From NCBI RefSeq assembly GCF_016862975.1, contig NZ_BONZ01000027.1:1-64000 (forward strand): 64,000 nt of DNA, given 5' to 3'. The position numbers were made by a program, and so were the translations under genes. Position 1 is the first letter of the stretch; each line of letters opens with the position of its first letter. Positions 1,408 to 25,249 of the stretch are shown piece by piece. The DNA is from Rugosimonospora africana (GTDB lineage: Bacteria > Actinomycetota > Actinomycetes > Mycobacteriales > Micromonosporaceae). The notes beneath the pieces are model-generated. The model was given only the letters and a program-made list of their open reading frames with translations. It was not told the origin of the DNA and made no database searches.

Positions 1408-1765
1408 GCTGGCGCCCCCTCCCGTGCACGCGCGCCTTTCCGCAGCCTGCCTTGCCGAGGGGTCATCGAGCATCACCCAGAACGGGTGAGGCCACCGCGA
1501 CGGGTCGAAGCCCGGCCCCTTCTCCGCGTGGCGGAATACCCTGTTTGATTTCTTGATTGTCAGGCAGCCTGCACGTTACGTTGCAGGACATCAACAGATC
1601 CGCACATCTCTCAGCGTTTCTCAACAATCCTGTGCGGTCCGCGGCCGGCCGAGTGTGAAGGGGAGTGCTCGCCTCCGCCAAAGGGCGGATCCGGCGGCGC
1701 CTCCCGCTTTTTCGTCCAATATCGAACGCCGGGTCGCGCCGCCATGCGGAACGGAGGGTCACCCC
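1408..1765. other. Divergent intergenic region, 358 bp
   Basis: This gap separates the minus-strand SCP2 operon from the plus-strand alpha-galactosidase. It is less GC-rich around 1540-1620. It holds a candidate operator/promoter (1553-1587, listed separately) and a 16-base stretch at 1665-1680 that is identical to part of the 58-bp repeat at 32658-32825. No coding potential that I would defend. Confidence 0.5.
1553..1587 (+). promoter_or_regulatory. Candidate promoter/operator upstream of the GH27 gene
   Basis: TTGATT at 1553-1558 is followed after 17 bp by TTACGT (1576-1581), a weak -10. Overlapping this is an inverted repeat CCTGCA (1568-1573) / TGCAGG (1582-1587) with 8 bp between the arms. 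LacI-family sugar regulators commonly use such palindromes, but no regulator gene lies nearby. Low confidence. Confidence 0.3.
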
Positions 1766-4456
1766 ATGAGAAGGTTGGCGCGGGGCCTGGCCGCGGCGGT
1801 GCTCGCGGTCCCGGTCGCCGTCCTGGCCATCGTCGCGACCGCGCCGGTCGCGAGCGCGCAGGACAACGGGGTCGGGTCGACCCCGGTGCTCGGCTGGAGC
1901 AGTTGGAGCTTCATCCGGCACAACCCGACCGCGGCGAACATCGAGGCGCAGGCCGACGCGATGCGCGACAGCGGCCTGGCGAAGGTGGGCTTCCAGTACG
2001 TCAACGTCGATGACTTCTGGTACCAGTGCCCGGGCAGCCAGGGGCCGAACGTCGACCAGTACGGCCGCTGGGTCATCGACGCGACCAAGTTCCCGCCCAG
2101 CGGATCGACCGATGGCATCAAGGTCGTCGCCGACCACGTGCACGCCGATGGCCTCAGGTTCGGCATCTACGTGACCCCCGGCATCTCCGCCCAGGCGGTC
2201 GCGCAGAACACCGCGATCGAGGGCACGAGTTACCACGCCGGTGACATCGCCACCACGGCGGCGGAGAAGAACTACAACTGCAAGGGCATGGTCGGCATCG
2301 ACTACACCAAGCCCGGCGCGCAGGAGTTCGTGAACTCGTGGGCCAATCAGTTCGCCTCGTGGGGCGTGGACTACGTCAAGATTGACGGAGTCGGCACCAG
2401 CGATGTCCCCGACATCCAGGCGTGGTCGGCGGCGCTGCGGCAGACCGGCCGCCCGATCCACCTCGAGTTGTCCAACAGCCTGGCCATCTCCGGCGCCGCG
2501 ACCTGGAAGCAGTACGCCAACGGTTGGCGCACCGGCGGCGACATCGAGTGTTACAGCTGCGAGTCCGGTGGCAGCAGCTACCCGCTGACCAGCTGGAGCA
2601 GCGTCAGCTCCCGGTTCAACCAGGTGGCCAGCTGGCAACCGTACGGCGGCCCGGGCGGGTACAACGACTACGACTCCCTGGAGATCGGCAACGGCGCCGG
2701 CGACGGGTTGACCCTCGACGAGCGCAGGACCCAGATGAGCCTGTGGTCGCTGGCCGCCTCGCCGCTGATCCTGGGCACCGACCTGACCGACCTCGACCCG
2801 ACCGACCTGTCGTTGCTGAAGAACCGCGACGTGCTCGCCGTCGACCAGGACGGCATCGACGCGTCCCGGGTCGTGAACAGCTCGACCCAGCAGGTGTTCG
2901 CCAAGACCGAGCGGGACGGCCGGGTCGTCGTCGGACTCTTCAACACCGGCAACGCCACGCAGGTGGTGTCCACCACGGCGACCGCGGTCGGGCTGCCGTC
3001 CGCCCCCGGGTACCTGCGGACCGACCTGTGGTCGCACCAGGTGACGGAGAGCGGCCCGACCATCTCCGCCGACGTGCCGGCGCACGGCGTCGTGCTGCTG
3101 CGCGTCGCACCCAGCAAGCTGACGTTCCTCGCGCCGCCGGCCACCACGCTCGTCGTCGGCGGGCTGTCCAGCGCCGTCGCCGGGCAGCCGGTGACCGCGA
3201 CCGAGTCGTTCACGAACGGCGGTGTCCAGCCGGTGCAGCTGGCGAAGCTGGGCCTGGCCGCGCCGGCCGGGTGGACGGTCAGGCCGACCTCGGCCACGTC
3301 GTTTGGCAGCGTGGCGGCCGGGGCCACGGTACAGGCGACGTTCGAGCTGGTCGCGCCGCCGCCGGCCACGTTGTTCCAGACCGACACGGTCACCGGTACC
3401 GCCGACTACCGGTGGCACCTGCTGATCCCGCAGAAGGTCAGCGCGACCGCGACGGTCACCACCGGATCCTCGGTGTCGGCGCCGTACCGCACGTTCTCCT
3501 CGGCGACCGACGCGCCGGCCTCGTTCGCCCAGGGCGGCGACCAGTTCGGCATCTCCGGCGCCGGCGCCGACCTGTACTCCAGCAGCGACAGCTACAGCAC
3601 CACGTACCTGGCCGGCGCGGTGGGCACCACGGCCACCGTCGAGACCCAGGTGGCCTCGCAGCAGAACCTCAGCGGGTACGGCAAGGCCGGCATCCTGGTG
3701 CGCGACGACATGACCGCGTCCGGAACCGGCCCGGAGGGCGTGATCCTGTTCGAGTCCCCGTCCGGCGGCATCCAGCTGGAGTGGAACAACAACGGCGGTA
3801 CGCACATCAACGCGGTGACGCCGCCCAACGGCACCATCGCCGACCGGGTGCCGGTGTGGCTCAAGCTGGTCCGCGACGGGGCGGCCTACACCGGGTACTA
3901 CTCGACGGACGGCAGCACCTGGGCCACGGTGGGCACCGCGACCGTGCCGGGCCAGGCGGACACCCAGGACGCCGGCATGTTCGTCACCGCGCACGCCACC
4001 GGCAACCCGGCCCAGGCGGTGTTCCACACGTTCACCGTCAAGGACACGGCGGACGGTCCCGGGCCGGTCTCGTACGAGGCCGAGGCGGCCACCAACACCC
4101 TGGCCGGCGGTGCCAAGGTGAGCAACTGCACCGCCTGCTCGGGCGGCCAGAAGGTCGGCTTCATCGGCAACGGCGGCACGCTGACCTTTACCGGCGTGAC
4201 CGTGCCGGTGGCCGGCGAGTACCGGGTGACGATCGCGTACCTCGACGGCTCGACTCCGCCGCGCCAGGTGATGGTCAGCGCGGACGGCGGGACGCCGCAG
4301 ACGCTGACCGACACCACCACCGGCGACTTCAACACGCTGGGCACGATGACGGTGTCGCTGCCACTCTCGGCCGGCACCAACACTATCGAGTTCGCCAATC
4401 CGGGCGCCTACGGGCCGGATATCGACCGCATCGTGGTCGCCGACACGCCCGGCTGA
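1766..4456 (+). CDS. Secreted alpha-galactosidase, GH27, with NEW3-like, lectin-like and CBM35-like C-terminal modules
   Basis: A protein of 896 residues that should hydrolyse terminal alpha-galactosides outside the cell. ATG 1766 follows GGAGG at 1753-1757, and the first residues form a classic Sec signal (MRRLARG, hydrophobic core, cleavage near VASAQ). The GH27 barrel spans about residues 35-400: it opens with TPVLGWSSW, the nucleophile is predicted to be Asp207 in YVKIDG and the acid/base Asp259 in GGDIE. After residue about 455 come an NEW3-like beta domain, a concanavalin-like module (about 575-760) and a CBM35-like module (about 770-895, starting YEAEAA). The multi-module tail suggests binding to plant polysaccharide. 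A strong hairpin lies after the stop. The stop itself sits in the first, degenerate unit of a 29-bp tandem repeat. Confidence 0.93.
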   Translation: MRRLARGLAAAVLAVPVAVLAIVATAPVASAQDNGVGSTPVLGWSSWSFIRHNPTAANIEAQADAMRDSGLAKVGFQYVNVDDFWYQCPGSQGPNVDQYGRWVIDATKFPPSGSTDGIKVVADHVHADGLRFGIYVTPGISAQAVAQNTAIEGTSYHAGDIATTAAEKNYNCKGMVGIDYTKPGAQEFVNSWANQFASWGVDYVKIDGVGTSDVPDIQAWSAALRQTGRPIHLELSNSLAISGAATWKQYANGWRTGGDIECYSCESGGSSYPLTSWSSVSSRFNQVASWQPYGGPGGYNDYDSLEIGNGAGDGLTLDERRTQMSLWSLAASPLILGTDLTDLDPTDLSLLKNRDVLAVDQDGIDASRVVNSSTQQVFAKTERDGRVVVGLFNTGNATQVVSTTATAVGLPSAPGYLRTDLWSHQVTESGPTISADVPAHGVVLLRVAPSKLTFLAPPATTLVVGGLSSAVAGQPVTATESFTNGGVQPVQLAKLGLAAPAGWTVRPTSATSFGSVAAGATVQATFELVAPPPATLFQTDTVTGTADYRWHLLIPQKVSATATVTTGSSVSAPYRTFSSATDAPASFAQGGDQFGISGAGADLYSSSDSYSTTYLAGAVGTTATVETQVASQQNLSGYGKAGILVRDDMTASGTGPEGVILFESPSGGIQLEWNNNGGTHINAVTPPNGTIADRVPVWLKLVRDGAAYTGYYSTDGSTWATVGTATVPGQADTQDAGMFVTAHATGNPAQAVFHTFTVKDTADGPGPVSYEAEAATNTLAGGAKVSNCTACSGGQKVGFIGNGGTLTFTGVTVPVAGEYRVTIAYLDGSTPPRQVMVSADGGTPQTLTDTTTGDFNTLGTMTVSLPLSAGTNTIEFANPGAYGPDIDRIVVADTPG

Positions 4457-4563: not shown

Positions 4564-4662
4564 CCGGGACGGGCGCGTGGGGCCGGCCGCCATATCGACG
4601 CATGCAAAGGTGTGGTGGCCGGCCGTCGCCCGGCGCGGGCGGCCGTCCCTAGCGTGGCGCAC

Positions 4663-5691
4663 ATGAAGCCACTCCCACGCATCGGCGCCGCCACCGTCAC
4701 GGCGCTGCTCGTCCTGCTCGGCCTGGCCGCACCGGCCCCGGCCGCCGGTCCGTCGGCCGTCCCACCCGTGGACGGAACGCTGCGGGCTTACCACATCTCC
4801 GGGGTGTACGTCAGCGGAGTCTCCTCCGGCGGGTACATGGCCACCCAGCTCCAGGTGGCGTACTCCAGCCGGATCCGCGGTGCGGCCATCTTCGCCGCCG
4901 GCCCGTACTACTGCGCGCAGAACAATGCCAGCCAGGCGGTCTACGGCTGCGGGCAGAACCTCTGGCCGGACTACCTGCCCACGCTGGAGGCCGACGCCTC
5001 GCTGTGGTCCGGGTACCGGTGGATCGACCCGATCGGGAACCTGTCCGGCCAGCCGGTGTACGTGTACCACGGCACCGCCGACTCCACCGTCGCCGGCAGC
5101 CTCACCAGCGACCTGGCCAGCTTCTACCGGCACTTCGGCGCGAGCGTGCAGTACGTGACCGGGCCGGCCGGCCACTCCTGGGTCACCCCGTACGGGCCGC
5201 TCGGCTGCACCGCCACCGCCTCGCCGTACCTGGACAACTGCGGTACAGACGTGGAGAACGCGTTCCTGGGCAAGCTGTTCGGCGGGGTCACCGCGCCGAA
5301 CACCGGAGCGCTGTCCGGTACCCTGACCCGGTTCAACCAGAGCGGCTACGCGGTCGGCGGCAATCCGGCCGGGCTGTCCATGGGCAGCAAGGGTTTCGTC
5401 TACGTGCCGGCCTCCTGCGCGGCGGGCGCGACCTGCAAGCTGATGGTCGCGCTGCACGGCTGCTCCCAGGGGTACGACGCGGTCGGCACCGCCTTCGTGG
5501 ACGACGCCAACCTCAACCAGTACGCAGACACCAACGCGATGATCGTCCTGTACCCGCAGGCGACCGCGAGCGCTGTCAACCCGTACGGCTGCTGGGACTG
5601 GTGGGGCTACCTCGGCGCGACCAACTACCCGATCCACGGCGGTGCTCAGGTCGAGACCATCATGAACGAGGTGCGGTCGCTGGGCGGTTGA
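4663..5691 (+). CDS. Secreted PHB depolymerase-like esterase with N-terminal nucleophile (permuted topology)
   Basis: A 342-residue protein with a signal peptide (MKPLPRIGAATVTALLVLLGLAAPAPAA). Its predicted catalytic serine is unusually close to the N-terminus: Ser54 in the box GVSSG, then Asp140 (HGTADS) and His171 (AGHSW). A C-terminal half with VALHGCSQGY, the usual N-terminal oxyanion region of PHB depolymerases, follows. This order matches the circularly permuted PHB depolymerase type known from Penicillium funiculosum. It should cut polyhydroxybutyrate or short hydroxyalkanoate oligomers extracellularly; the substrate is inferred. It lies 206 bp after the alpha-galactosidase stop, beyond a hairpin, so it is probably transcribed on its own. 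Another PHB-depolymerase-type gene of conventional order lies at 10375-11634. Confidence 0.88.
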   Translation: MKPLPRIGAATVTALLVLLGLAAPAPAAGPSAVPPVDGTLRAYHISGVYVSGVSSGGYMATQLQVAYSSRIRGAAIFAAGPYYCAQNNASQAVYGCGQNLWPDYLPTLEADASLWSGYRWIDPIGNLSGQPVYVYHGTADSTVAGSLTSDLASFYRHFGASVQYVTGPAGHSWVTPYGPLGCTATASPYLDNCGTDVENAFLGKLFGGVTAPNTGALSGTLTRFNQSGYAVGGNPAGLSMGSKGFVYVPASCAAGATCKLMVALHGCSQGYDAVGTAFVDDANLNQYADTNAMIVLYPQATASAVNPYGCWDWWGYLGATNYPIHGGAQVETIMNEVRSLGG

Positions 5692-6265: not shown

Positions 6266-6305
6266 CCCGGCCGCGGGTCGCACAGTCGTGAAACGAGGTG
6301 AGGCG

Positions 6306-7628
6306 ATGACGTTCGCCGATCGGGAGGATGCCGGCGCGCAGCTGGCACAGCGACTGGAGGACCTGCGCGGCCACGACGTGGTGGTCCTCGGGCTCACCCG
6401 TGGCGGCGTGCCGGTCGCGGCGAAGGTGGCCGACGCGCTGGACGCGTCGCTGGACATCCTGGTGGTACGCAAGCTAGGTGCCCCCGGCCAACCCGAACTG
6501 GCGATGGGCGCGATCGGCGAGGACGGCGTACGCGTGGTGGAGGACGACGTGCTCAGCCGCCTCGCGCCGAGCGCCGGTGAGCTGGCCGAGGTGGAGCAGG
6601 CCGAACGGGCCGAACTCGACCGGCAGCGGGCGCGGCTGCGCGAGGGGCGGCCGGGAGTGCGGTTGACCGGCCGTACCGCTGTGGTCATCGACGACGGTGT
6701 GGCCACCGGGTCCAGCGCCCGGGCGGCGTGCCAGGTGGCCCGGGTCCGCGGCGCGGCGCGGGTGGTTCTGGCCGTACCGGTGGTCGCCACCGACGTCCTG
6801 CCGGTGCTGCGGCACGCCGCCGACGAGGTGGTGTACGTGACCGCGTCCGACCGGTTCGCCGCGATCAGCGCCTGGTACGACGACTTCGAGCAGGTCGGCG
6901 ACGACCGGGTGACGGACCTGCTCAGCCGGCGGGACGATCGTGCGCTGGCCGGCAAGGATGCCGCGGCCGGATCGATGACCGGTACCCGCGCCGCGATGGA
7001 CGCCGAGGTCACCGTGACCACCGGCACCGTGGCGCTGCCCGGGCACCTGATGGTGCCGGCCGGTGCCACCGGCGTCGTGGTGTTCGCGCACGGCAGCGGC
7101 AGCAGCCGGGCCAGCCCGCGCAACACGTTCGTGGCGAGGCTGCTGAATGACGCGGGCCTCGGCACCCTGCTGCTCGACCTGCTCACCGAGGGGGAGGAGG
7201 CCGACCGGGCCAACGTGTTCGACATCGACCTGCTCGCCGAGCGGCTGGGCGGGGCGATCGAGTGGCTGCGCGGCGAACCGGCCGGCGGCGACGCGGTGAT
7301 CGGCCTGTTCGGCGCGAGTACCGGCGCGGCCGCGGCGCTGTCCGCGGCGGCGCGACCGGGCGCCCGCGTCGCGGCGGTGGTGTCCCGGGGCGGCCGGCCC
7401 GACCTGGCCGGCCCGCGCCTGGCCGAGGTGCAGGCGCCGACACTGCTCATCGTCGGCGGGCTGGACACCGAGGTGATCGAGCTCAACCGGCAGGCGCAGG
7501 CCCAACTGCGCGGCCCCAACCGGCTCGACGTGGTGCCGGAGGCCACCCATCTCTTTGAGGAACCCGGTGCGCTGGAGCGGGTCGCCGAACTGGCCCGCGA
7601 CTGGTTCGCCGAGTACCTGCGCCGGTAG
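6306..7628 (+). CDS. Phosphoribosyltransferase fused to a dienelactone-hydrolase-like alpha/beta hydrolase
   Basis: A 440-residue fusion. Residues 1-210 are a type I phosphoribosyltransferase: the PRPP loop is VVIDDGVATG (126-135) and GLTRGGVPVA marks the N-terminus. Residues 230-440 are an alpha/beta hydrolase with VVVFAHGSGSS and a nucleophile elbow GASTG (Ser338). I chose ATG 6306 because GAGGTGAGG lies just upstream; an in-frame GTG at 6288 lacks a ribosome site. Such fusions occur beside stress and hypoxia genes in actinobacteria; the substrates are not known. The next gene, an ATPase-hemerythrin fusion, is only 161 bp downstream on the same strand, so co-expression is possible. Nothing looks truncated. 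Confidence 0.85.
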   Translation: MTFADREDAGAQLAQRLEDLRGHDVVVLGLTRGGVPVAAKVADALDASLDILVVRKLGAPGQPELAMGAIGEDGVRVVEDDVLSRLAPSAGELAEVEQAERAELDRQRARLREGRPGVRLTGRTAVVIDDGVATGSSARAACQVARVRGAARVVLAVPVVATDVLPVLRHAADEVVYVTASDRFAAISAWYDDFEQVGDDRVTDLLSRRDDRALAGKDAAAGSMTGTRAAMDAEVTVTTGTVALPGHLMVPAGATGVVVFAHGSGSSRASPRNTFVARLLNDAGLGTLLLDLLTEGEEADRANVFDIDLLAERLGGAIEWLRGEPAGGDAVIGLFGASTGAAAALSAAARPGARVAAVVSRGGRPDLAGPRLAEVQAPTLLIVGGLDTEVIELNRQAQAQLRGPNRLDVVPEATHLFEEPGALERVAELARDWFAEYLRR

Positions 7629-7789
7629 TCGTGGCGACCGGCGCACCAGCGAGTCCGACAAAGCACAGGCAACGACGACGGCGCGCGGCCGGGCGGGCAC
7701 ACCGCCCGCGCCGCCGGGGCACGGTGGGCTCCGGCGACGCGCGCACCAGGCCGCCGGCGCGGCCAGGCGTGAACCGAGGGGGCGGTGTC

Positions 7790-10207
7790 ATGAACCGAGG
7801 AAGCGGTGTGGTGAGAAGCGGCGTGATGCGAAACAGCGTGATGAGAAGCGGCGTGATCCGAAGCATTGCCGATGAGTCCCGGTGGCACGGGCTGTGGTGG
7901 GAGTGGGCCCTGCTGACCGGAATCATCGCGGCCACCATCGCGGGGGCCGGGTTCCGGCTCGCCGGCCGCTTCGGCTCGGCCGACATCGCGTGGATCGTGG
8001 CCACCGCGGGCGGGCTGCTGCCCGCGATCGCGTGGATGGCCGTGTCGCTGATGCGGCGCAGGATCGGGGTCGACGTGATCGCCGTACTGGCGCTGGCCGG
8101 CACGCTGGGCGTCGCCCAGTACGGCGCCGGCGCGCTGGTCGCGCTGCTGCTGGTACTGGGCGCGGCACTGGAGTCGTACGCGCGCGGCTGGGCGTCGCGC
8201 GACCTGCGGGCACTGGTCGACCAGGCGCCCAGCTTCGCGCGCCGGCACGACGGCCAGGGCGAGGAGGAGATGGTCGAGCTGGACGCCGTGCGCCCGGACG
8301 ACCGCCTCGTCGTGTACCACCGCGACGTCGTGCCGGTGGACGGCTTCGCCGAGGAGACGGCGGTACTCGACGAGTTCGCGGTCACCGGCGAGCGGGAGCC
8401 GATCGAACGGGCTCCCGGGGAGCGGGTGGCCAGTGGCGCGATCAACGTCGGGCCGGCGTTCAGCATGCGGGCCACGTCCACCGCCGCCCAGAGCACCTAC
8501 GCGAGCATCGTGCGGCTGGCCCGGCAGGCGACCAGCCGGCGCGCGCCGATGGTCCGGCTGGCCGACCGGTACGCCATCGTGTTCGTGCCGTTCACGCTCC
8601 TGCTGGCCGGGCTCGCCTGGGCGATCGGCGGCGCGTTCACCCGCGCCGTGGCGGTACTCGTGGTGGCGACCCCCGGGCCGCTGCTGCTCGCCGCGCCGAT
8701 CGCCATCGTCTGCGGGCTGTCCCGGTCGGCGCACCGCGGCCTTGTGGTGCGCGACGGCGCCGTGCTGGAGCGGTTGGGGCGGGCCGGCACGGTATTCATC
8801 GACAAGCGCGGCACGCTGAGCCTCGGCCGGCCGAAGGCCACGGAGATGGTCAGCGCTCCGGACGCCGACCTGGAGGAGACCCTGCGGCTGGCCGCCTCGG
8901 TCGAGCAGTTCTCCCACCACCCGCTCGCCGGGGCTGTAGTGGCCGAGGCGGCCCGGCGCGGGCTCGAGCTGGCCGCACCGGAGGACGTCCGCGAGGACAA
9001 CGGCCGCGGCATCAGCGGCCGGGTCGACGGCCGGTCGGTGTGGGTCGGGCAGTTGGACGGTGACCTGGCCCCGTGGGCGGAGCAGGAGCGCAACCGCGCC
9101 GAGCTGGACGGCGCGGCGGTGGTCTGGGTGAGCGTGGACGACAAGCCCTCCGGCGCCCTGCTGATCCAGGATCCGGTGCGTTCGGACGCCCGGCGCAACG
9201 TGCGCCGGCTGCGGGAGTCGGGCCTGACCCGGCTGGTCATGGTCACCGGGGACCGGCCGCAGGTCGCCGGTGAGATGGGCCGGATGGTCGGCGTCGACGA
9301 CGTCGTCGCGGGCGCCGACGTCGAGCAGAAGGTCGACCGGGTACGGGCCGAGTCGCAGCGCGCGGTGACCGTGATGGTCGGCGACGGGGTACAGGACGGG
9401 CCGGCCCTGTCCGCCGCACACGTCGGTGTCGCGCTGGGCGCGACCGGGGCGAGCGCGTCCGCCGAGGCGGCCGACGCGGTGCTGACCGTGGACCGGCTCG
9501 ACCGGCTGGGCGACGCGGTCGAACTGGCCCGGTACAGCCGGCGGATCGGGTTTCGTACCGCGGCGGCCGGGATGGTGCTCGTGCTCACCGCCATGGCGAT
9601 CGCGATGACCGGGCTGCTGGTACCGGTGGCCGGCGCGCTGGTGCGGGAGGGCATCGAGGTACTGGTCATCGGCGGCGCGCTGGCCGCGTTGATCGGGGGA
9701 GTGCGCCGGCGGCGGTTGCCGACCAGCACCGACGAGCTGATCGACCAGTTCACCGTCGAGCACGAGAAGCTGCGCGACGCGCTGATCCGGTTGCGCAGCA
9801 CCGCCGACCTGGTCGCCATGGAGCACGACGGGGCGATGTGCGTGGACGCGCTGCGCGACGCGTACCAGCGGCTCAGCCGCCAGATCATCAGCCACGACGA
9901 GGCCGAGGAGCAGCGGTTGTACCCGCAACTGGCCGGCCAGGTGGGGCCGGAGACGACCGCGACGATGAGCCGCGCACACACCGAGATCCGGCGGTTGGTC
10001 GACCGGGTGGACGGGCACCTGTGCCTGACGTCGGACTCCCGGCTGGAGGCCGAGCAGGTACCCGACCTGCTGGCCACCCTGTACGGCCTGGACGCCATCC
10101 TGCGCCTGCACTTCGCCGAGGAGGAGGAGAACCTGTTCGCGCTCACCTCGGCCAGCAACCCGATCGAGACGGACCAGGACCAGCTGGCTAGATCGGCAGT
10201 CCATTAG
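7790..10207 (+). CDS. Heavy-metal-type P-type ATPase with altered signature motifs fused to a C-terminal hemerythrin domain
   Basis: An 805-residue membrane protein. Visible P-type elements are TGE (199-201), the membrane motif TPGPL (294-298) where metal pumps usually have CPC or TPCPL, the phosphorylation site DKRGT (Asp338) where DKTGT is nearly invariant, the HP motif (His377-Pro378), TGD, and GDGVQDGP (531-538) where GDGxNDxP is usual. Paired membrane helices flank these. From about residue 648 a hemerythrin HHE domain follows, with candidate iron ligands His658, His702, His730, His774 and nearby glutamates. The aspartate nucleophile is kept, but three signatures are changed, so transport activity is uncertain; an oxygen- or iron-sensing role is possible. 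I chose ATG 7790 (purine-rich site upstream). The first 26 residues derive from 15-bp DNA repeats. Confidence 0.85.
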   Translation: MNRGSGVVRSGVMRNSVMRSGVIRSIADESRWHGLWWEWALLTGIIAATIAGAGFRLAGRFGSADIAWIVATAGGLLPAIAWMAVSLMRRRIGVDVIAVLALAGTLGVAQYGAGALVALLLVLGAALESYARGWASRDLRALVDQAPSFARRHDGQGEEEMVELDAVRPDDRLVVYHRDVVPVDGFAEETAVLDEFAVTGEREPIERAPGERVASGAINVGPAFSMRATSTAAQSTYASIVRLARQATSRRAPMVRLADRYAIVFVPFTLLLAGLAWAIGGAFTRAVAVLVVATPGPLLLAAPIAIVCGLSRSAHRGLVVRDGAVLERLGRAGTVFIDKRGTLSLGRPKATEMVSAPDADLEETLRLAASVEQFSHHPLAGAVVAEAARRGLELAAPEDVREDNGRGISGRVDGRSVWVGQLDGDLAPWAEQERNRAELDGAAVVWVSVDDKPSGALLIQDPVRSDARRNVRRLRESGLTRLVMVTGDRPQVAGEMGRMVGVDDVVAGADVEQKVDRVRAESQRAVTVMVGDGVQDGPALSAAHVGVALGATGASASAEAADAVLTVDRLDRLGDAVELARYSRRIGFRTAAAGMVLVLTAMAIAMTGLLVPVAGALVREGIEVLVIGGALAALIGGVRRRRLPTSTDELIDQFTVEHEKLRDALIRLRSTADLVAMEHDGAMCVDALRDAYQRLSRQIISHDEAEEQRLYPQLAGQVGPETTATMSRAHTEIRRLVDRVDGHLCLTSDSRLEAEQVPDLLATLYGLDAILRLHFAEEEENLFALTSASNPIETDQDQLARSAVH
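7808..7867. repeat. 15-bp tandem repeat in the 5' end of the ATPase-hemerythrin gene
   Basis: Four units start at 7808, 7823, 7838 and 7853, each encoding a five-residue block (VVRSG, VMRNS, VMRSG, VIRSI). A longer diverged duplication (GTGAACCGAGG / ATGAACCGAGG) precedes it. Unit length is a multiple of three, so copy-number change keeps the frame. Confidence 0.8.
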
Positions 10208-10301: not shown

Positions 10302-10391
10302 GTCGGCACTGCGCGTCGGGTCGGCACTGTCGGTCGCGTCAACACTGTCGGTCGCATCAACACTGGCCGTCGGGTCAGCACTGGCCGTCGG
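10302..10391. repeat. 18-bp tandem repeat (5 copies) overlapping the 3' end of the esterase gene
   Basis: Units start at 10302, 10320, 10338, 10356 and 10374. Read on the minus strand in the gene's frame, successive units give DGQC-stop-P, DGQC-stop-C, DRQC-stop-R, DRQCRP and DAQCRP, so the terminal four codons plus stop of the esterase have been duplicated outward. Confidence 0.85.
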
Positions 10392-11634
10392 CCAGGACGT
10401 AGTAGTTCGATCCGGTCTGGCGCAGGGTGTGGGTGGTGAACACGTTCCACAGCCCCATCGCCTGGTTGGAGCCGTTGGCGTAGACGTACCCGCCGGACTG
10501 GTGTGCGCGGCCGGCCGCCGTCTGGTTGTAGTTGTTGTCGGTGAAGCACGGGCCGTTCGCCGTCTGGGTCGGCGTCGGGGTCGGGCTCGCCGGCGCCGAC
10601 GGCGTCGGGCTCGCGCTCGTCGGGGGCGTGGTCGGGCTCGACGAGCCGCCGGCCAGTCCCCAGAACTGGGCGATGTAGTACGACGAGCAGAGCGACTTGA
10701 GGTAGTACGTGCCGGTGGCGCCGCACTGGTCGACGCCGCTGCCCGGGTTCACCGGCGTACCGTGGCCGATGCCCTGCACGGCGTACAGCTGCACGGCCGG
10801 CTTGCCGGACGAGTCGTTGTAGTTCTGCAGGGTGGTGCTGCCCGGCAGGGTGGTGGTGGAGCTGGGCGTCTGGGAGATGCCCCAGACATTGGTCCACTGG
10901 TCCCGCGACTCGGTCGCGTTCGCCGGGTTCACGATGGCGTCGGAGGTGCCGTACCAGACGGCGACCCGGGGCCACGGCCCGGAGTAGCCGGGGTCCGCCC
11001 CGCGTACCAGGTCGCCCCACTGCGCCGGGGTCTTGCTCGTCGCGCTGTACTCACAGGTCAGGCCGCTGGTCAGGTCGGTGGCGCAGGCGTACGGGATGCC
11101 GCCGATGATGGCGCCTCCGGCGAACACGTCGGGGTAGTCGGCCAGCATGACGGCCGTCATCGCACCGCCCGCCGACAGCCCGGTCACGTACACCCGGTGG
11201 GCGTCGGAGCCGTAGTGGGCGACCGCGTAGTCCACCATCTGCTTGATGGACAGCGCCTCGCCCTGCCCGCGCTTGTAGTCACCGGTCTGGAACCAGTTGA
11301 AGCAGGACGTGGAGTTGTTCGCCGAACTCTGTTGCGGGAACACCAGGGCGAAGTGGTACAGGTCCGCGTATTTCGGCCAGCCGGCGTTGGTGTAGTAGTC
11401 GGACGCGCTCTGGGTGCAGCCGTGCAGCGCGACCACCAGCGGAGCGCCGGACGGCAGGCCGGTGGGGACGTAGCTGTACATGCCGAGCGCGCCCGGGTTC
11501 GACCCGAACCCGGTGACCTGGGTGAGTGTGGCCGCGGCCTGGGCCGGCGCCGCGACCAGCGGGACGGTGGCGGCGACCGCCAGCGTGCCGGCGCACGCCA
11601 GGGCCGCGACGAACAGGCGGTGTTGTCTGCGCAT
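10375..11634 (-). CDS. Extracellular PHB depolymerase-family esterase with C-terminal substrate-binding-like module
   Basis: A 419-residue secreted protein: signal peptide to about residue 34 (VAAPAQAA), then an Esterase_phd catalytic domain in conventional order with VALHGCTQSASDY (oxyanion region), the nucleophile box GLSAGG, Asp in WYGTSD and His in GIGHGT. A Pro-Thr-Ser linker (about 327-358) leads to a 60-residue C-terminal module (PCFTDNNYNQTAAGRAH ... ADGQC) that resembles the short binding segments of PHB depolymerases. Family members hydrolyse PHB or feruloyl/acetyl esters on xylan; the choice is open here. ATG 11634 follows GGGAGG. The stop is embedded in an 18-bp minisatellite, and the last residues DGQC are the repeated unit. 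Confidence 0.88.
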   Translation of the reverse strand: MRRQHRLFVAALACAGTLAVAATVPLVAAPAQAAATLTQVTGFGSNPGALGMYSYVPTGLPSGAPLVVALHGCTQSASDYYTNAGWPKYADLYHFALVFPQQSSANNSTSCFNWFQTGDYKRGQGEALSIKQMVDYAVAHYGSDAHRVYVTGLSAGGAMTAVMLADYPDVFAGGAIIGGIPYACATDLTSGLTCEYSATSKTPAQWGDLVRGADPGYSGPWPRVAVWYGTSDAIVNPANATESRDQWTNVWGISQTPSSTTTLPGSTTLQNYNDSSGKPAVQLYAVQGIGHGTPVNPGSGVDQCGATGTYYLKSLCSSYYIAQFWGLAGGSSSPTTPPTSASPTPSAPASPTPTPTQTANGPCFTDNNYNQTAAGRAHQSGGYVYANGSNQAMGLWNVFTTHTLRQTGSNYYVLADGQC

Positions 11635-22123: not shown

Positions 22124-23782
22124 ATGACGAACCCGGCGATCCTGACCGTCGATGACGATCCCGCCGTGTCCCGCGCGGTCGCCCGTGACGTCCGCCGCCG
22201 CTACGGCGACCGGTACCGGGTGGTGCGCGCCGGGTCCGGACCCGACGCCCTGGACGCGCTTCGCGAGATCAAGCTGCGCGGCGAACAGGTCGCGGTGATG
22301 CTGGCCGACTACCGGATGCCGCAGATGAACGGGATCGAGTTCCTCGAAGAGGCGATGGACCTGTTCCCGCGTGCCCGGCGGGTGCTGCTGACCGCGTACG
22401 CGGACACTGACGCCGCCATCGACGCCATCAACCTGGTCGACCTCGACCACTACCTGCTCAAGCCGTGGGACCCGCCGGAGGAGAAGCTGTACCCGGTGGT
22501 CGACACCCTGCTGGACGCGTGGATCGCCACCCCGGACCCGTCGATCACCGAGACCCGGGTGGTGGGGCACCGCTGGTCGGCGCCGTCGTTCGCGGTACGC
22601 GACTTCCTCGCCCGCAACCTCGTGCCGTACCGGTGGCTGCTCGCCGACGAGCCGGAGGGTGGGCGCCTGCTCAAGGCGGCCGGCCTGACCCCGGACGACG
22701 TACCGGTCGTCGTGTTGCCCGACGGAAAGCCGCTGGTCGCGCCGAGCGAGGCCGAGCTGGCCGCGCAGGTCGGCCTGACCACCACCCCGACCTCCGACTT
22801 CTACGACCTGGTCGTGATCGGTGCCGGTCCGGCCGGGCTGGGTGCGTCGGTGTACGGCGCGTCCGAGGGCCTGCGCACAGTGCTGGTCGAGCAGCGGGCC
22901 ACCGGCGGCCAGGCGGGCCAGAGCAGCCGGATCGAGAACTACCTCGGCTTCCCGGACGGCGTCTCGGGGGCGCAGCTGACCGAGCGCGCCCGCCGGCAGG
23001 CGTTGAAGTTCGGCGCCGAGCTGCTGTCCGCCCGCGAGGTGGTGGGGCTGGAGGCGGCCGGGCCGACCCGGCTGCTGAAGTTCGCCGACGGCACGTCGAT
23101 CGCCGCGCACTCCGTGGTCCTGGCCACCGGGGTGTCGTACCGGCTGCTCGAGGCGCCCGGCATCGCGGACCTGACGGGCCGCGGCATCTACTACGGCTCG
23201 GCGTCCACCGAGGCGCCGAGCTGCGCGGGCGAGGAGGTCTACATCGTCGGCGGCGCGAACTCGGCCGGCCAGGCCGCGGTCTACTTCTCCCGGTACGCGA
23301 GCCGGGTGCACATCCTCATCCGCTCCGGCGACCTGGGCCGCTCGATGTCCCGCTACCTGATCGACCAGATCGAGGGGATCGACACCATCGAGGTGCACCC
23401 GCACACCGAGGTGATGGCCGCGCAGGGGGACGGGCACCTGGAACGGCTGGTCCTGTGCGACGGGCGTTCCGGCCAGACCCGGACGGCGGACGCCGCCGCG
23501 CTGTTCATCTTCATCGGCGCCCAGCCGCGCACGGACTGGCTCGGCGACGCGGTCGCCCGAGACTCGCGCGGCTTCGTGGTCACCGGCGCCGACCTCGTAC
23601 GCGACGGGCAGCGGCCGACCGGCTGGACGCTGCCCCGCGACCCGTACCACCTGGAGTCCAGCCTGCCGGGCGTGTTCGCGGCCGGCGACGTCCGGGCGGA
23701 CAGCCTCAAGCGGGTCGCGTCCGCCGTCGGCGAGGGCGCCGCGGCGGTGGCGCTGGTGCACCGGTACCTGGCCGGACAGTAG
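22124..23782 (+). CDS. Response-regulator receiver fused to a thioredoxin-reductase-like FAD/NAD(P) oxidoreductase
   Basis: A 552-residue fusion. Residues 1-125 are a CheY-type receiver with DDD near the N-terminus, phospho-acceptor Asp62 (ADYRMP), LTAYAD and Lys113 (LLKPW). Residues about 140-215 look like a glutaredoxin-like fold without a CxxC. From about 225 a thioredoxin-reductase-like flavoprotein follows: GAGPAG (233 on), GQAGQSSRIENYLGFPDG and VGGANSAGQAA. The redox-active CxxC of thioredoxin reductase is absent; only Cys367 (APSCAGEE) remains there. It is probably the output of the adjacent histidine kinase, turning phosphorylation into control of a flavoenzyme. First gene of a four-gene operon. 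ATG 22124 has GGAAGG somewhat far upstream. Confidence 0.88.
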   Translation: MTNPAILTVDDDPAVSRAVARDVRRRYGDRYRVVRAGSGPDALDALREIKLRGEQVAVMLADYRMPQMNGIEFLEEAMDLFPRARRVLLTAYADTDAAIDAINLVDLDHYLLKPWDPPEEKLYPVVDTLLDAWIATPDPSITETRVVGHRWSAPSFAVRDFLARNLVPYRWLLADEPEGGRLLKAAGLTPDDVPVVVLPDGKPLVAPSEAELAAQVGLTTTPTSDFYDLVVIGAGPAGLGASVYGASEGLRTVLVEQRATGGQAGQSSRIENYLGFPDGVSGAQLTERARRQALKFGAELLSAREVVGLEAAGPTRLLKFADGTSIAAHSVVLATGVSYRLLEAPGIADLTGRGIYYGSASTEAPSCAGEEVYIVGGANSAGQAAVYFSRYASRVHILIRSGDLGRSMSRYLIDQIEGIDTIEVHPHTEVMAAQGDGHLERLVLCDGRSGQTRTADAAALFIFIGAQPRTDWLGDAVARDSRGFVVTGADLVRDGQRPTGWTLPRDPYHLESSLPGVFAAGDVRADSLKRVASAVGEGAAAVALVHRYLAGQ

Positions 23783-23808
23783 GAGAGCCGGACAGACAGA
23801 CAGGAGAG
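23772..23808. repeat. Duplicated stop/ribosome-site segment between flavoprotein and kinase genes
   Basis: CCGGACAG followed by TAGGAGAG (23772-23787, contains the TAG stop) is repeated as CCGGACAG ... AGGAGAG at 23788-23808 with an extra GACA-type expansion. The second AGGAGAG is the ribosome site of the kinase gene. Confidence 0.65.
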
Positions 23809-23812
23809 CGAC

Positions 23813-25249
23813 ATGGCTGAGGACGGCGACCGGCTCACCCCGGATGAGCTGCGTACCCTGTTTCTGTTCGAGCGCCTGGACGACGAGCAGCTCGACCTGC
23901 TCGCGGACAAGGGACGGGTGGTGAACCGGGCGGCCGGCACCCCGGTCTACGTCGAGGGCGAGCCGGCGACCTGCTTCTTCGTGCTGCTGCACGGCACCAT
24001 CGCGCTGATCCGGCGGATCCACGGCGACGACGTCGAGGTCAGCCGCACCGAGCAGCGGGGCGTGTACGGCGGCGCCACCCAGGCGTTCATGACCAGCATC
24101 GACCAGGTGTACGCGCACGGCATGCGCGCCATCACCGACGTCGAGATGCTCGAGCTGCCGGCCGAGACCATCGCGCACGCCGTTCGGGAGTGGTTCCCGA
24201 TGGCGCTGCACCTGCTGGAGGGCCTGTTCTTCGGCATGCGCAACCAGCAGACCGTGATCGGGGAGCGGGAGCGCCTGCTGGCCCTGGGCTCGCTGTCGGC
24301 CGGGCTGACCCACGAGCTGAACAATCCCGCCGCCGCGGCGGTGCGCGCCACCTCGGTGCTGCGCGACCGGGTGGCCGGGATGCGGCACAAGCTCGCGATG
24401 ATCGCGGACGGCCGGCTCGACGGAAGCCGGCTGCACGAACTGGTCGAGTTCCAGGACGCCGCGGTGAAGCGGGCCGCGATCGCGCCGCCCCGCTCGCCGC
24501 TGGACACCGCCGATGCCGAGGACGAGCTGGGGGACTGGCTCGACGAGCACGGCATCACCGGCGGCTGGGACATCGCCCCGACGCTCGTCGCGGGCGGCAT
24601 CGACGCCGAGTGGCTGGACAAGGTCGCCTCGGCGGTCGGCGACGACAACCTGGACCCGGCGGTGCGCTGGTTGACCTACACCATCGACACCGAGTTGCTG
24701 ATGGGCGAGATCGACGACTCGGTCACCCGCATCTCCGGGCTGGTCGCCGCCGCCAAGCAGTACTCCCAACTGGACCGCACGCCGTTCCAGACGGTCAACG
24801 TGCACGACCTGCTCAACGCGACGCTCACCATGCTGCACGGGAAGATCCCGGAGGGGGTGCGGCTGGTCAAGGAGTACGACCCGGACCTGCCGCAGATCCC
24901 GGCGTACGCGGCCGAGCTGAACCAGGTGTGGACCAACCTCATCGACAACGCGCTGTCGGCGATGGCCGGCACCGGCACGCTGACCGTCCGCACCACCTGC
25001 GAGGGCGACCGGATCATCGTCGAGATCGGCGACACCGGACCGGGCATCCCGCCCGAGGTGCGCCCCCGCATCTTCGAGCCGTTCTTCACCACCAAGCCGG
25101 TCGGCGAGGGCACCGGGCTGGGGCTGGACATCTCGTACCGGATCGTGGTCAAAAAGCACCACGGCGACATCCGCGTCGAGTCGAGTCCGGGCGACACCCG
25201 GTTCCGGGTGATCCTGCCGATCGAGCCCAGCTCCCAGCCGTCGCCGTGA
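23813..25249 (+). CDS. Sensor histidine kinase with N-terminal cyclic-nucleotide-binding domain
   Basis: A 478-residue soluble kinase. Residues about 10-130 form a cNMP-binding-like domain ([19 protein letters not shown] ... [22 protein letters not shown]). The phospho-acceptor is His167 in [12 protein letters not shown]; then come the N-box [11 protein letters not shown]1 DTGPGIP, F-box FEPFFTTK and G2 GTGLGLDI. No membrane segment is present, so it should sense an internal signal. It lies 30 bp after the receiver-flavoprotein gene, which is its natural phosphotransfer partner. ATG 23813 has AGGAGAG upstream. Whether the domain truly binds a cyclic nucleotide is open; the phosphate-binding cassette is not clear. 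Confidence 0.88.

Follow-up and report, generated by a model that had tools for sequence, protein, structure and literature searches.

Introduction

Does a P-type ATPase gene of Rugosimonospora africana with altered catalytic and metal-site signatures encode a working pump, a protein kept for another role, or a product on its way to decay? The protein joins the ATPase to a C-terminal hemerythrin (HHE) domain, an architecture known already from the P1B-5 ATPases, which are common in actinomycetes. The same domain order is found in A0LQU2 of Acidothermus cellulolyticus, likened to the present protein by its description, and in Nia (SMa1163) of Sinorhizobium meliloti, which is named as a P1B-5 ATPase (PMC4932525). 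The iron-ligand pattern of the ATPase-hemerythrin fusions is H-HxxxE-HxE-HxxxxD, and a review leaves undecided whether the hemerythrin signal of the P1B-5 fusion is oxygen, redox state or iron (PMC9388753). In this study, we aimed to elucidate what the altered gene descends from, which selection acts on it, and what its product may do.

Materials and methods

The window, that is, the whole stretch of DNA that was analysed, comprises 64,000 nt of the R. africana assembly (11.1 Mb, 219 contigs). The family alignment contained 224 distinct members including the window protein, and 193 of them carry a hemerythrin domain. Clade searches covered the genomes of the genus (1), family (355), order (200) and class (395), and motifs were read in part of the listed matches. 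Whole-genome searches, in which any close relative would have come out on top, were independent of the CPLLLA seed described below.

A species-level contig scan was seeded with the canonical CPLLLA stretch and with VAVLV[VT]ATP; only CPLLLA is biased to the canonical site. A first species-level scan with the window protein alone gave no match, probably because few of its peptide seeds occur outside the window copy.

Selection was evaluated using a codon model in which sites fall into three classes and an exponent, K, relaxes selection on a single branch. The model is a home-made simplification and synonymous sites are nearly saturated; the p-values are approximate.

Results and discussion

An intact gene of the P1B type

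Positions 7790-10207 of the plus strand were read directly as a single uninterrupted open frame of 805 codons, with a start at ATG 7790 or GTG 7631 and the stop codon at 10205-10207. The altered DKRGT, TPG and GDGVQD signatures of the original prediction were thereby confirmed. The gene and its main parts are as follows.

7770..7857 (+), imperfect tandem repeats with periods of 21 and 15 bp, at the 5' end, where the N-terminus lies outside the homology region
7790..10207 (+), ATPase-hemerythrin gene, with a start possibly anywhere from 7631 to about 7895
8228..8737 (+), actuator domain together with the membrane helices next to it (PF00122); TGE is intact at 8384-8392
9737..10144 (+), hemerythrin/HHE domain (PF01814, E 1e-14)

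The 21-bp and 15-bp repeat units lie across the likely start codon, and the N-terminus that they would specify is repetitive (MNRGSGVVRSGVMRNSVMRSGVIRS). Homology to relatives begins at about residue 36, and the true start may lie downstream of the repeats.

The protein has the profile matches and the domain set of a P1B-type heavy-metal ATPase. Pfam placed E1-E2_ATPase at residues 147-316, a HAD hydrolase at 334-544 and Hemerythrin at 650-785, each scoring above its cut-off. The NCBIfam heavy-metal ATPase models TIGR01525 and TIGR01512 scored 432 bits (cut-off 346) and 386 bits (cut-off 313.5), respectively. The predicted model had a mean pLDDT of 84, and a structure search with it matched P1B ATPases; the model indicates that the fold is plausible, and activity is no part of what it supports. 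By profile and structure search, the fold is shared with ZntA, CopA and CadA (4umv, 3rfu, 7qbz), but these proteins have CPC (or SPC) and full catalytic motifs, and their profile alignment with the window protein stops short of the HHE domain.

Catalytic and metal-transport sites are altered together

TPGPL (residues 294-298), DKRGTLS (338-344), GDGVQDGPALS (531-541), TGE (199-201) and HHP (376-378) were read directly from the translation. All 223 other members of the alignment are canonical, with TPCPL, DKTGT[L/V/I]T and GDG[VIL]NDAP. The altered sites are listed below.

8117..8119 (+), E110Q, where an otherwise invariant Glu of an N-terminal transmembrane helix is changed in this copy only (from the alignment)
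8669..8683 (+), TPGPL versus family TPCPL at the transmembrane metal site; the codon at 8675-8677 encodes Gly instead of Cys296, and 223 of 223 others have TPCPL
8801..8821 (+), DKRGTLS versus DKTGT[L/V/I]T in the phosphorylation loop; the phospho-Asp, Asp338, is kept, and 223 of 223 others have DKTGT
9380..9412 (+), GDGVQDGPALS versus GDG[VIL]NDAPALA in the hinge and Mg/phosphate loop; 223 of 223 others have GDGxND
9644..9658 (+), REGIE versus QE(G/A/V)ID in the last transmembrane helix, Gln619 being Arg (from the alignment)

We do not class the window protein among the working P1B-5 ATPases, since each of the three defining sites that were tested is replaced: the catalytic DKTGT and GDGxND of P1B ATPases (DKRGT and GDGVQD), the P1B-5 TPC(P) site in the membrane helix that precedes the P domain (TPGPL), and QExxD in the last membrane helix, a motif defined from this alignment (REGIE). 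The original prediction had read the second of these as a change from CPC to TPG; the Gly in place of Cys is indeed new, but the Thr is the family standard. It had also listed TGE, HP and the phospho-Asp as remaining. TGE and Asp338 are kept, as are Lys339, TGD and the hinge Asp residues, but the mention of HP was misleading. The P1B 'HP' column (residues 377-378; window 8918-8923) reads HV in almost all relatives and HP in a few (L040, L048), and the Pro is a further departure.

In a leave-one-out comparison of 80 sequences, the window protein changed 13 of 128 otherwise invariant columns (E110Q, M120L, S196F, C296G, T340R, T344S, P511V, N535Q, A537G, A541S, A587G, A606M and D623E), versus at most 4 (mean 0.4) in any of the other 79 homologues; the departures are therefore far beyond chance. 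Nine were still private after the alignment had been enlarged to 224 sequences. The private changes span the phosphorylation loop, the hinge loop, the CPC site and the last membrane helix, where Q619R is a further near-invariant change, four residues before D623E. In a profile alignment with ZntA (4umv), Cys296 corresponds to the second Cys of CPC and Gln619 to the Asp of the last helix, which we take to be a membrane metal-site residue. Catalytic and transport sites are thus both affected.

A sequencing, assembly or contamination artefact might be suspected, as the copy is unique and comes from a draft assembly of 219 contigs, but we consider this explanation extremely improbable. The key codons are GGG (Gly296), CGC (Arg340) and CAG (Gln535), and each is at least two base changes from any codon of the residue replaced, which makes scattered single-base errors very unlikely. 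The branch further carries many coherent codon-wise replacements, GC3 is normal, there is no frameshift, and the copy groups with Micromonosporaceae sequences.

A single altered copy within a canonical lineage

In phylogenetic analysis, the window protein fell inside the P1B-5 lineage. It was nested in an actinomycete group, and its sister, with a support of 0.935, was the homologue of the Micromonosporaceae MAG EFPC_2 (L059/L102). This protein was also the closest homologue found; it is 62% identical and shares the full architecture. Unlike the window copy, it has canonical motifs, a threefold shorter terminal branch (0.19 substitutions per site versus 0.55) and no relaxed selection.

A match at E <= 1e-120 was found in 163 of the 355 genomes of the family, with Micromonospora, Salinispora and Planosporangium among the named homologues. 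Homologues also occur in Mycobacterium, Nocardia, Rhodococcus, Streptomyces, Blastococcus and others, and on rhizobial and Cupriavidus plasmids. The copy on pSymA of S. meliloti, presumably nia (SMa1163), the biochemically studied P1B-5 ATPase, is homologous along the whole protein and 42.7% identical across 89% of the window protein; it has TPC, DKTGT, GDGxND and QExxD, all of which the window copy lacks. No functional P1B-5 paralogue, nor any second gene of this subfamily, was found in the source genome at E 1e-120.

The original prediction had proposed checking whether the altered motifs mark a clade. This check went against a clade trait, since all 223 others are canonical, those of the same architecture included. 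No second altered member was found in the genomes of the genus, family, order and class that were searched, in the species-level contig scan, or in the two plasmid copies that were read. With only one sequence of the altered type in the collections searched, it is impossible to demonstrate that this form is conserved. The window gene is genuine: an eroded descendant of a known lineage, and a singleton.

About 30 homologues (L100, L101, L036, L037, L242-L261 and others), many of them from Micromonospora and Salinispora, have canonical pump motifs without a hemerythrin domain. From these, the domain has either been lost repeatedly or the group has two architectures.

Selection is weakened but present

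Over the 605 codons of the ATPase part, lnL was -11084.61 at K = 1, -11065.56 at K = 0.52 and -11105.93 under neutrality. The fit at K = 0.52 was better by 19.05 than K = 1 (p about 1e-9, approximate) and by 40.4 than neutrality. On the sister branch, K was 0.94 with no significant gain, indicating unchanged selection. In the HHE part (150 codons), lnL was -3146.9 at K = 1, -3145.3 at K = 0.65 and -3151.6 under neutrality. Neutrality was rejected (gain of 6.25), and relaxation was not significant (gain of 1.56), with low power in this short domain. Selection on the ATPase part is therefore relaxed yet present; on the HHE part it is present and not clearly relaxed. The K of the HHE part (0.65) is not clearly different from that of the ATPase part (0.52), and values this close do not show that the sensor domain has been specially preserved.

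A plain neutral pseudogene over the whole branch was ruled out by the codon model. The gene is not a plain pseudogene, because it has no premature stop or private indel in 805 codons and a normal GC3 (0.93, similar to neighbouring genes), and because neutrality of the branch is rejected.

A slower decay, in which selection has weakened or recently ended and the active-site changes are early pseudogene steps with no new function, is the main rival of the explanation favoured below, and we regard it as a real possibility. The copy is a singleton, its selection is relaxed and relatives of like architecture are canonical; the gene also appears dispensable in the family, about half of the 355 genomes having no match at E 1e-120. 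The uninterrupted frame speaks against it. For the ATPase part, a two-phase model, with full function followed by a dead phase, fell 4.8 lnL units short of constant weak selection at equal parameters. Under this model, about 0.26 neutral substitutions would have accumulated per codon and about 2.1 stops would be expected from substitutions alone (probability of none about 0.12), with frameshifts extra. The original prediction had held that canonical relatives of the same architecture would mark the copy as a decayed gene. Such relatives exist, but simple decay did not follow from them: the frame is intact, neutrality is rejected for both parts and the HHE ligands are kept.

The hemerythrin domain and a possible role of the protein

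The HHE domain was predicted to have plausible iron ligands, and all ligand positions are indeed present (H658, H702, E706, H730, E732, H774 and E778-E780), forming the H-HxxxE-HxE-H pattern of the C-terminal hemerythrin-like domain of some P1B-5 members. The HxE in place of HxxxH is shared with the P1B-5 ATPases with hemerythrin (PMC9388753). Of the columns conserved in at least 99% of sequences, 102 lie in the ATPase part and 12 in the HHE part; the window protein departed at 13 of the former and at none of the latter, but this bias did not reach significance (Fisher p = 0.35).

Given that an Arg now sits in the phosphorylation loop and that Gln replaces the hinge Asn, Gly the metal-site Cys and Arg the metal-site Gln, phosphorylation-coupled metal transport seems unlikely. 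The kept Asp, Lys, TGE, TGD and hinge Asp residues would still permit residual activity, and the protein could be an ATP-driven pump or flippase with a changed cargo and a slowed, altered cycle. A precedent is ERMA, a mammalian ER P-type ATPase reported to move Mg2+ with DKQGI and GSSANL for DKTGT and GDGVND; like the window copy, it has a P-type fold in which the phosphorylation and hinge motifs are both degenerate and the Asp is kept (PMC13322241). ERMA is, however, a different kind of P-type ATPase in which TGE is absent, and transport is reported for it, whereas the window protein is known by its sequence. An altered pump is improbable in our judgement, as the metal-ligand Cys has become Gly and the membrane Gln has become Arg with no obvious substitute ligand, Arg lies two residues from the phospho-Asp, and the ATPase part shows a loosening of selection, not a change in its direction. 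The pump for an unusual cargo that the original prediction envisaged is likewise disfavoured by the joint alteration of catalytic loop and transmembrane site.

We tentatively favour, over slow decay, a transport-incompetent former P1B-5 pump whose fold and HHE domain are under weaker selection and which may well be retained for iron or oxygen binding; the kept HHE ligands and the membrane scaffold are the remaining candidates for function. The protein would descend from the P1B-5 (Nia/Acidothermus-type) ATPase-hemerythrin lineage and would have lost its phosphoryl-transfer sites (DKRGT, GDGxQD) and its metal-transport sites (TPG, REGIE), so that pumping is most likely gone. The membrane-anchored fold and the cytoplasmic HHE domain appear to be still under weakened purifying selection, from which we infer retention for a non-pumping role. 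In the likeliest such role, the HHE di-iron site would bind iron or oxygen and relay its state, or would merely keep iron at the membrane. A narrower formulation, which we consider doubtful, is that the former pump is now a membrane-bound, non-pumping di-iron sensor (of O2, redox or iron) or iron-binding protein, a bacterial P-type pseudo-ATPase. A retained sensor function or another non-pump role may thus apply.

Provided that the gene is retained and also expressed, it would represent a version of the P1B-5 design that has been separated naturally, and could reveal the job of the hemerythrin domain without the pump. If it is decaying, it would have little significance beyond annotation, the automatic label "heavy metal translocating ATPase" being wrong for this gene.

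Gene neighbourhood

The gene immediately upstream (window 6288-7628) encodes a fusion of a phosphoribosyltransferase with a dienelactone-hydrolase-like domain, which in our view is reminiscent of mycobacterial hypoxia genes. Membership of a DosR/hypoxia regulon was considered and rejected: no DosR-like palindrome was found near the gene, and the fusion was absent beside all homologue loci examined. Some homologue loci have universal stress protein or nitroreductase genes nearby.

PHB-depolymerase-like esterases on opposite strands flank the region, at 4621-5691 and at 10375-11634 (-). The former lies just after an alpha-galactosidase with carbohydrate-binding modules (1655-4456). Farther along the window, at 22124-25249, a fusion of a response regulator with a pyridine-nucleotide-disulphide oxidoreductase adjoins a protein with cyclic-nucleotide-binding and histidine-kinase-type ATPase domains.
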